Assembly: GCF_014779655.1 (NCBI RefSeq)
Contig: NZ_JACXYX010000007.1
Location: forward strand, 62,001-126,000
DNA: 64,000 nt
Direction: 5' to 3'
From: Nocardioides ganghwensis
GTDB lineage: Bacteria > Actinomycetota > Actinomycetes > Propionibacteriales > Nocardioidaceae
The notes beneath the pieces are model-generated. The model was not told the DNA's origin. It searched no databases and worked only from the letters and a program-made list of their open reading frames with translations. Both the position numbers and the translations under genes were made by a program. Below are positions 8,901 to 11,570 of the stretch, in pieces; position 1 is the stretch's first letter; each line of letters begins with the position of its first letter.

Positions 8901-11396
8901 TCAGACGACGACGTTGACCAGCCTGGGCGCGCGCACGATCACCTTGCGCACGGTGGCGCCGTCGATCGCGCGCTGCACGCCCGCGTCGGCGAGGGCGGCC
9001 GCCTCCAGGTCGGCCTCGGAGATGTCGGGCGACACCTCCAGGCGCGCCTTGACCTTGCCCTTGACCTGCACGACCGCGGTGACGGTGTCCTCGACCAGCA
9101 GCGCCTCGTCGACGACCGGCCACCCGGCGCGGGCGACCGTGGGCTCGTGGCCCAGGCGCTCCCACATCTCCTCGGCCGTGTATGGCGCGACCAGCGACAG
9201 CAGGACCGCCACCGCCTCGGTCGCCTCGCGCACCGCCGGGTCCGCGGGACCGCAGCCGGAGTCGATCGCCTTGCGAGTGGCGTTGACCAGCTCCATGACG
9301 CGGGCCACCACCACGTTGAAGCGGTAGGTCTCGACCAGCTCGGCCGCGTCGTGGACGGTGCGCGCGGTCGTACGCCGCAGCGCGAGGTCGCCGCCCGACA
9401 CGTCCGCACCCGGGGCCGAGGTGACGTCGCCGGACAGTCGCCAGGCGCGCTGCAGGAAGCGCAGCGACCCGTCGGGCGACATGTTGGCCCAGTCGATGTC
9501 GTCCTCCGGCGGACCGGCGAAGACCAGGGTCAGCCGCACCGCGTCGACACCGAACGCGGCCAGCTGGTCGCCCAGGTTGACGCCGTTGCCCAGGGACTTG
9601 CTCATCTTCTTGCCCTGGTTGATCACGAAGCCCTGGTTGAGCTGGGCCGACCACGGCTCGCGGAAGTCGACCAGGCCCATGTCGTTGAGCACCTTGGTGA
9701 AGAACCGGCCGTAGAGCAGGTGCAGCACCGCGTGCTCGACGCCGCCGACGTAGAGGTTGCACGGCATCCAGGCGTTGACCTTGGCGCTGTCGAAGGCCTG
9801 GGTCTCGTCGTGCGGCGAGCAGTAGCGGAACATGTACCAGGACGAGTCGACGAACGTGTCCATGGTGTCGGTGTCGCGGGTCGCCGGGCCACCGCAGGTC
9901 GGGCAGGTCGTGTTGACCCAGTCGGTCGCGCCGCCCAGCGGCGAGGTGCCCTTGGGCTTCAGGTCGGCACCGGTCAGCACCGGCAGCGTCACCGGCAGCT
10001 GGTCCTCCGGCACCGGGACCTCACCGTCGACGGGGCAGTGGATGATCGGGATGGGCGGGCCCCAGTAGCGCTGGCGGCTGATCAGCCAGTCGCGCAGGCG
10101 GAAGTTGACCGCGCCGGAGCCGCGTCCGTCGGCCTCCAGCCGCTCGATGATCGAGCGGATGCCCGAGGCCTTGTCGCCCAGCCCGTCCAGGGGCCCGCTG
10201 TTGACGTACGTCCCGTCACCCGACGTCGCGACCCCGGTCTCCTCGGGGTTGTCGTCTCCGGTGTCGATGACCCGTCGGACCGGCAGGCCCATCGTCCGGG
10301 CGAAGTCCAGGTCGCGCTGGTCGTGGGCGGGCACCGCCATGATCGCGCCGGTGCCGTAGTCGGCCAGCACGTAGTCGCTGGCCCACACCGGGATCTCCTC
10401 GCCGGAGACCGGGTTGGTGGCGGTGATGCCCAGGTCGACGCCGGTCTTGGGCCGGTCGGTGGACAGCCGGTCGATGTCGGAGGCCTTGCGGACCTCGACC
10501 AGGTAGTCCTCCAGCGCCTGCGCGCGGTCGGGGTGCACGATCTCGGCAGCCAGCGCGGCATCCGCGGCGACCACCATGAACGTGGCGCCGTACAAGGTGT
10601 CGGGACGGGTCGTGTAGACCTCGATGTCGCGCTCACCGTCAGCCGCGTGCAGCGTGAACGTGACGTGGGCGCCCTCGGACCGCCCGATCCAGTTGCGCTG
10701 CGCGGTGACCACACGGTCGGGCCAGGTCTTCTCCAGCTCGTCCAGGCCGTCCAGCAGCTCCTGGGCGTAGTCGGTGATCTTGAAGTACCACTGGGTCAGC
10801 TCCTTCTTGGTCACCTCCGCCCCGCAGCGGTCGCAGACGCCGCCGACGACCTGCTCGTTGGCCAGGACGGTCTGGTCGTTGGGGCACCAGTTGACCGGGC
10901 TGTTCTTGCGGTAGGCCAGGCCACGCTCGTGGAACTTCAGGAACAGCCACTGCGTCCACCGGTAGTAGTCGGGGTCGCTGGTGTTGAAGGTCCGCGACCA
11001 GTCGAACGACGCGGCGTACTTCCGGCACGACTCGATCGAACGCGCGATGTTGGCGCGCGTGTAGGTGTCGGGGTGCTCGTCGTTGCGGATCGCGGCGTTC
11101 TCCGCCGGCAGGCCGAAGGAGTCGAAGCCCATCGGGTTCAGCACCTCGTAGCCGCGCTGCCACCAGTAGCGCGCCACCACGTCGTGCAGCGCGAACACCT
11201 CGGCGTGACCCATGTGCAGGTCGCCGCTCGGGTAGGGGAACATCGTCAGCGCGTAGCGCTTCTCGCGCGGGCTGTCGTCGTCGGCGCGGAACGGCTGGAG
11301 GTCCTCCCAGACCCGCTGCCACTTCGTCTCGGTGGCCTCGATGTCGTACGTCGCACGCTCGGGGTTCGCGTCGGGGGCTCCGGTGTCCTGGCTCAT
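8901..11396 (-). CDS. leuS: Leucine--tRNA ligase
   Basis: The product has 831 residues. It charges tRNA-Leu with leucine. Class I signatures are visible: HMGH at 61-64 in [14 protein letters not shown] (the HIGH motif) and [10 protein letters not shown] near residue 597 (KMSKS). The editing domain segment is in the middle ([15 protein letters not shown]), and a zinc-finger-like [14 protein letters not shown]...CDRCG region and a C-terminal anticodon-binding part are present. The gene stands alone in its transcript. Upstream lies a putative leader peptide with three Leu codons and a terminator hairpin (11445-11533), suggesting that synthesis responds to charged tRNA-Leu. The ribosome binding site is AAGAGGA, seven to eight bases before the ATG. 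Confidence 0.97.
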
Positions 11397-11444
11397 GGCG
11401 TGTCCTCTTGTTGCGGTCTGCTCGTGTGTCGCTGGGATGGCATG

Positions 11445-11468
11445 AAAAAACCCCTCACATGGAGGGGT
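11445..11468 (-). terminator. Attenuator-type terminator in the leuS leader
   Basis: Read on the minus strand, ACCCCTC pairs with GAGGGGT around a five-base loop (7 bp, 11450-11468), and a run of six T residues (11445-11450) follows. It lies about 50 bases before the leuS ATG and in the same direction, so it would stop transcription before the gene. That position marks it as a conditional terminator, not one that ends an upstream gene. The next upstream gene on that strand is far away. Confidence 0.75.
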
Positions 11469-11497
11469 GGCCGCGTGTCGGGTCCTGGGGGACGCGA

Positions 11498-11533
11498 TCA
11501 GCGCGGCTGTCGAAGAAGGAGCTGCTGGCGCAC
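11498..11533 (-). CDS. Putative leuS leader peptide (11 codons, three consecutive Leu codons)
   Basis: The minus strand reads [11 protein letters not shown]-stop from GTG 11533, with leucine codons CTC CTT CTT at 11513-11521. CTT is rare in this high-GC genome, which is typical of attenuator leader peptides. The GTG lies exactly six bases after a TAGGAT hexamer (11540-11545), so the peptide would be the first thing on a leaderless transcript, as for many other genes in this window. GCCGCG near the peptide end (11502-11507) can pair with CGCGGC just before the terminator stem. An alternative ATG at 11541-11543 would give a 28-codon ORF without Leu but lies inside the -10. Not experimentally supported. 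Confidence 0.55.
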
Positions 11534-11539
11534 GACGTC

Positions 11540-11570
11540 ATCCTAACCTGTCCCCGTCACCGGCCGCGAA
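11540..11570 (-). promoter_or_regulatory. Candidate leuS leader promoter
   Basis: On the minus strand, TAGGAT (11540-11545) is a good -10. A weak -35, TTCGCG (11565-11570), lies 19 bases upstream. The predicted start site is the G of the leader-peptide GTG at 11533. The promoter sits between divergent genes, beside the ribosome binding site of the plus-strand gene at 11585. Confidence 0.5.

Follow-up and report, generated by a model that had tools for sequence, protein, structure and literature searches.

A predicted leucine-responsive leader-peptide attenuator upstream of leuS in Nocardioides ganghwensis, and similar hairpin pairs upstream of branched-chain amino acid genes

The window, a 64,000-nucleotide stretch of contig NZ_JACXYX010000007.1 of Nocardioides ganghwensis, carries on its minus strand a gene for leucyl-tRNA synthetase (leuS, 8901–11396; 831 amino acids, ATG at 11396), the product of which scores 912 bits against NCBIfam leuS_bact (TIGR00396; cutoff 548). 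By reading the sequence, AAGAGGA (11403–11409) is its likely ribosome-binding site. Further upstream on the same strand lies a short leader. A putative -10 promoter hexamer, TAGGAT (11540–11545), is separated by exactly 6 nt from a GTG which opens an ORF of 11 codons plus stop (11498–11533) bearing three consecutive Leu codons, CTC CTT CTT (11513–11521). These had been described in an earlier note on this locus, and all of them are present, as is the terminator it proposed ahead of leuS: a 7-bp stem-loop (P2; ACCCCTC/GAGGGGT, 11450–11468), recognized by terminator scan, fold and covariation, with a run of six T residues (11445–11450), the first of which also closes P2, so that hairpin and T run together occupy 11468–11445. 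The pairing of GCCGCG in the ORF with a downstream CGCGGC is also real. With additional inner pairs it forms a second hairpin (P1, 11507–11470), the 5' arm of which sits within the 3' end of the leader ORF, and which stops one unpaired base (11469) short of the terminator stem without overlapping it. The predicted fold of this leader, with P1 ending one base ahead of the P2 stem, has a minimum free energy z-score of -3.2 relative to shuffled sequences. A scan of 1.2 kb gave a single terminator-like site against an expectation of 0.3, and the Rfam covariance models gave no match to the region at the gathering threshold.

Among 105 distinct leuS leaders, gathered with a pattern admitting a gap of 5 to 8 nt between the -10 hexamer and the start codon, a TAnnnT-type hexamer lies 6 nt (82 leaders) or 7 nt (22 leaders) ahead of the start codon in 104. 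With such a gap the transcript should begin at or beside the start codon, which, as far as sequence can tell, speaks to the earlier concern that the true start might lie elsewhere and leave the peptide off the mRNA. In the window organism we infer a leaderless transcript beginning at the first base of the GTG (11533), from the position of the hexamer and from the homologous leuL2 ahead of leuS in Streptomyces lividans, which was found to be leaderless by RNA-seq in 2021 (PMC8079986). The window peptide also fits the LLLxxPR-ending Streptomyces type, represented by that of S. lividans (MRAVRLLLSEPR).

The Leu run comprises three codons in 92 of the 105 leaders and ends in CTT in 99. CTT had been called rare, and this is borne out, since in the leuS genes that follow these leaders it accounts for 1.9% of 2,676 Leu codons. 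As the gathering pattern required CTT or CTC as the last codon, the fair test is CTT against CTC at that position: the ratio is 99:6, against background frequencies of 1.9% and 12.8%, respectively.

Of thirty Nocardioides loci selected on no other criterion than their leuS gene, 28 possess the leader (L011 and L028 being judged by eye), far more than chance would give. A second search recovered it from Micrococcaceae, Streptosporangiales, Microlunatus and one Frankiales MAG. Alignment of the upstream regions of relatives, a check which the earlier note had proposed, showed the Leu-rich short ORF and the terminator to be conserved; the alignment of 46 leuS leaders (A1) is gap-free from the P2 3' arm on and nearly so in the arms of P1. 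In a class-wide sample of 297 genomes, a covariance model built from these leaders (R1) had matches in 153, the main ones directly ahead of leuS. The matches include two loci, L179 and L182, which we term Streptomyces-like on the resemblance of leader and protein. In some of the matched genomes, L182 among them, LeuRS is only about 38% identical to that of the window, so one leader serves two rather different types of the enzyme; the partial L182 protein has its best score to leucine--tRNA ligase. Two histories would account for this: replacement of the gene with the leader retained, or movement of the leader.

Several loci deserve separate mention. In L026 and L029, both Nocardioides, leuS has no leader and an apparent ABC transporter gene lies directly upstream; a sampled Aeromicrobium (L047) also has leuS without a leader. 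L182, L183 and L174 are Streptomyces- or mycobacteria-like genomes which carry the same leader with LeuRS about 38% identical to the window leuS product. In four Actinomadura loci (L074, L090, L091 and L096) the T run behind P2 is poor (for instance GAGGGGCCATTTCATG), and termination there may consequently be weak or factor-dependent. A record titled Sporosarcina beigongshangi (L075), and thus labelled as a Firmicute, contains an Arthrobacter-like leuS with its attenuator; this contig is probably contamination or wrongly labelled.

RNAalifold applied to A1 recovered both P1 and P2 without prior instruction. Two-sided changes are present in 9 of 17 pairs, and the covariation score of 0.223, as against 0.115 in shuffled alignments, was reached by none of 500 shuffles; every slid control of this test collapsed. 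Over 97 elements from leuS, cimA and ilvB, two-sided changes extend to 14 of the 17 pairs, in an alignment fitted to the model. In the same set the linker between P1 and P2 is 0–3 nt in all 97 (1–2 nt in 87) and P1 begins 5–6 nt past the last control codon in 93, counts for which the model-fitted alignment favours the model's own spacings. The loop of P1 ranges from 4 to 47 nt. The closing pair of P2 varies between G-C and A-U in A1, and is T-A in the Streptomyces-like loci.

Folding was then computed for the 46 leuS leaders, with no pairing allowed to bases that lie under the ribosome. P1 has a mean probability of 0.97 with no ribosome and of 0.96 when one is stalled at the first Leu codon; this drops to 0.13 for a ribosome on the last Leu codon and to 0.00 for one that has reached the stop. 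Hence P1 is free when the stall is early and covered when translation is complete, and since its folding tracks the site of the ribosome P1 would be a readout of ribosome position. P2 forms in every computed state and is stable together with P1; because it is thermodynamically formed in all states, read-through is unexplained by a simple energy switch. The earlier note had found no clear antiterminator. That stands insofar as there is none which overlaps the terminator, but the non-overlapping P1, which covaries, adjoins the terminator and is gated by the ribosome, most likely fills the role: by these folding calculations no other conserved structure could do so, and we regard P1 as a candidate antiterminator and sensor of ribosome position.

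Other features of the leader were considered and set aside. In columns 108–118 of A1 the final G of the terminator stem and a later TG are a constant distance apart in the 46 leaders, and the arrangement resembles a G-10 Y-1 G+1 pause; as a pause motif at the stem-to-(R)TG distance it was discarded, the final G not being kept in Streptomyces-like loci. Coupled change at columns 34, 84 and 109 is not base-pairing and probably reflects clade structure. A second ORF, with an ATG just past the T run and an ATGA overlap with leuS, is not conserved in length among relatives. Pairing of the leader ORF, including the Leu codons, with the 3' arm of P2 gave -8.4 kcal/mol, little better than the -7.6 of shuffled sequences, and would have the wrong sign, and pairing of the Leu codons with the leuS ribosome-binding site, in the style of the LEU element, was considered by eye.

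The Leu codons and both hairpins are thus kept in relatives, which supports the interpretation of this region as a leucine attenuator, and we consider it very probable that it is a leader-peptide transcription attenuator through which leuS responds to the supply of charged leucyl-tRNA. It has the features of such attenuators in the broad sense: a leader ORF with a Leu run, an intrinsic terminator and, by computation, a ribosome-dependent structure. Transcription would begin at the leader GTG, and the ribosome would translate the 11 codons without a Shine-Dalgarno site. With ample Leu-tRNA it would reach the stop codon and cover the 5' arm of P1; only P2 would form, and transcription would end about 50 nt ahead of leuS. 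When Leu-tRNA is scarce, stalling at the first Leu codons would leave P1 free to fold against P2, allowing read-through. Since P1 and P2 have no nucleotides in common, we propose that P1, with almost no linker between them, blocks closure of the base of P2, either sterically, within the RNA polymerase exit channel, or by competition at the base. We infer both the sign of the leucine response and that P1 weakens P2 by abutment rather than through a common arm. For leuS one would expect read-through when P1 is formed, and Mycobacterium tuberculosis ilvB1 shows that same sign (PMC13236596). As a counterpoint, work cited in PMC1262725 is described there as having found no effect of changes to the codons of the S. 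coelicolor ilvB leader.

A switch of the classical trp type, or "fast attenuator," in which P1 and P2 exclude one another through common nucleotides at their base and their competition decides termination, has a precedent in Corynebacterium glutamicum ilvBNC, where an adjacent antiterminator and terminator have a GCC trinucleotide in common and point mutations support the arrangement (PMC11857589). Moreover, in some leuS leaders P1 can be extended by one or two pairs into the nucleotide which closes P2 (UAGCCGCG/CGCGGCUG). These extension pairs are, however, not conserved among leuS leaders, and a search for a shared arm in the window found none, P1 and P2 having zero nucleotides in common and one unpaired base between them. 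Pairing of the P2 5' arm with a rival partner is also weaker than in shuffled sequences (mean -3.5 versus -6.2 kcal/mol). We therefore regard such a switch as unlikely, though worth keeping in mind.

The stability of P1 and P2 together might instead mean that P1 aids termination, as an anti-antiterminator or a pause hairpin, with stalling acting through another structure; in trp-type systems the first hairpin indeed pauses RNA polymerase and synchronizes it with the ribosome. Yet an alternative conserved antiterminator was sought in the alignment of leuS leaders and not found, and removal of P1 by a ribosome at the stop codon would give less termination under rich conditions. Such a sign is wrong for leuS and the reverse of that in M. 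tuberculosis ilvB1, and the reading is improbable. A terminator so near a gene might also simply yield a short stable RNA, whether as a constitutive leader terminator or a small-RNA gene, with no amino acid sensing and the Leu codons incidental; given that codon identity tracks the downstream gene across regulons and that the rare CTT and ATT codons are strongly favoured, we find this very hard to credit. Hardest of all to entertain is a riboswitch, T-box or protein-binding leader: ileS is under T-box control in some Actinobacteria (PMC1262725), but Rfam gives no match here at E up to 1, and what is conserved amounts to codons plus simple hairpins, the loop being anything from 4 to 47 nt long.

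The preferred reading, a leucine-responsive leader-peptide attenuator, has known counterparts. The earlier note was not aware of leader-peptide attenuation of leuS, but it was already published for Streptomyces: in 2005 Seliverstov and coworkers predicted leuS attenuators in two species of the genus, which they called classical attenuators (PMC1262725). The Streptomyces elements, leuL2 of S. lividans included, resemble the present one in their leader peptide with three Leu codons, their hairpins with a U run upstream of leuS and a leaderless transcript, such as we predict here, and the window element is a Nocardioides member of this kind. In the literature searched they are published for that genus only, whereas here the element is followed across Nocardioides and a large part of the phylum; its hairpins covary and do not overlap.

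The ilvBNC attenuator of C. glutamicum (PMC11857589; ilvB-II motif, PMC10272879), for which there is mutational support (PMC11857589), similarly has a near-leaderless branched-chain amino acid (BCAA) leader peptide and an antiterminator adjoining the terminator; it differs in that its hairpins have GCC in common and a third hairpin is involved, while those of the window have nothing in common. M. tuberculosis ilvB1 is induced by BCAA shortage, and replacement of its LVVI codons by Ala abolishes the stall-dependent induction (PMC13236596). There too a stalled ribosome frees the upstream hairpin and a ribosome at the stop covers it; unlike leuS, the system senses Leu, Val and Ile, controls biosynthesis, and is described in terms of mutually exclusive structures (PMC13236596). 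The window leader, with its predicted leaderless start, shares with this ilvBNC/ilvB1 type a (near-)leaderless BCAA leader and an antiterminator hairpin directly ahead of the terminator hairpin. The LEU element of actinobacterial leuA has a Leu-run leader ORF and the same amino acid, but it has no terminator and relies on a pseudoknot or hairpin that extends to the ribosome-binding site of leuA (PMC1262725). No antiterminator and terminator made mutually exclusive by a common segment, as in the trp type, were seen in the window. The leuS leader would resemble the trp and leu attenuators of Escherichia coli, in which ribosome stalling at control codons decides between termination and read-through. 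Those, however, have a common segment (2:3 versus 3:4), absent from the leuS leader, and a leader peptide led by a Shine-Dalgarno site.

Second matches of R1 precede the citramalate synthase gene (cimA), with codons ATC ATC ATT, and ilvB, with Ile, Leu and Val codons. A reduced model, R2, was confined to P1, P2 and the final control codon. With a limit of E up to 1, its matches in the genome of the window number exactly three and belong to leuS, cimA and ilvB. The cimA leader (MSTSTIIIA*, ATC ATC ATT; locus L214, G000:C3:32210–32273, + strand) was matched by R1 and R2, and the gene product scores 530 bits against TIGR00977 (cutoff 450). The ilvB leader (MRTEILVRTRRVS*, MRTEILV...; loci L203 and L249, G000:C3:7112–7203, + strand) was matched by R2 at E 0.0135 and has the P1–P2 layout. 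At E up to 0.001, R2 matches 90 of 118 genomes of the class. Of 60 non-leuS matches fetched for their downstream gene, nearly all belong to cimA or ilvB. A threonine-dehydratase-like gene follows in four cases and leuA, with Leu-Leu-Leu, in one (L318), and L276 is without an assigned gene. Twenty matches were fetched from other classes of the phylum, and 18 of these are ahead of ilvB, leuA or leuS, most with fitting codons; of the exceptions, L330 runs off its contig and L342 resembles a chance terminator.

Codon identity goes with the gene: leuS and leuA have Leu, cimA has Ile, and ilvB has Leu, Val and Ile. The two control codons that R2 leaves out fit this as well, the penultimate one being Ile in all cimA leaders read in frame and Val, mostly GTA, in most ilvB leaders. 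The last cimA codon is ATT in 18 of 18 cases, compared with 9 of 463 Ile codons in genes (about 1.9%), under a gathering pattern which admitted ATT or ATC. P1 and P2 also covary among the cimA elements alone, which are kept in most Nocardioides sampled and occur across the class; ilvB elements with the P1–P2 layout match the models in many genomes. Two further groups were observed. In L318, L328, L329 and L339, leuA follows Leu-run leaders with a P1–P2–terminator layout, unlike the LEU pseudoknot of leuA elsewhere, while L287, L301, L302 and L316 have threonine-dehydratase-like (ilvA-like) genes behind the same hairpin pair and leaders with one Ile codon beside a Thr codon (MAIT*, MVIT*).

We suggest tentatively, as something close to but short of an even bet, that these elements represent one ancient, phylum-wide platform reused ahead of leuS, leuA, cimA, ilvB and possibly ilvA with the codons alone swapped, in which a ribosome-gated hairpin acts against a terminator without mutually exclusive pairing. 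Its layout would run from a leaderless start through control codons of which the last is NTT and a constant 5–6 nt to P1, then 0–3 nt and P2. Descriptions of a cimA attenuator, and of a shared codon-swapped platform, were not found in the open-access literature, a scope outside which the 2010 Lopatovskaya review of attenuators falls; reuse of one platform with swapped codons appears to be less known. The work on leuS also points to an attenuator of citramalate synthase. Hairpins that abut without a common arm raise the matter of how an upstream hairpin defeats an intrinsic terminator. Because codon and gene match, function becomes predictable from sequence. In a large part of the Actinomycetota, the branched-chain amino acid pathway appears to share its cheap sensor with an essential tRNA synthetase.
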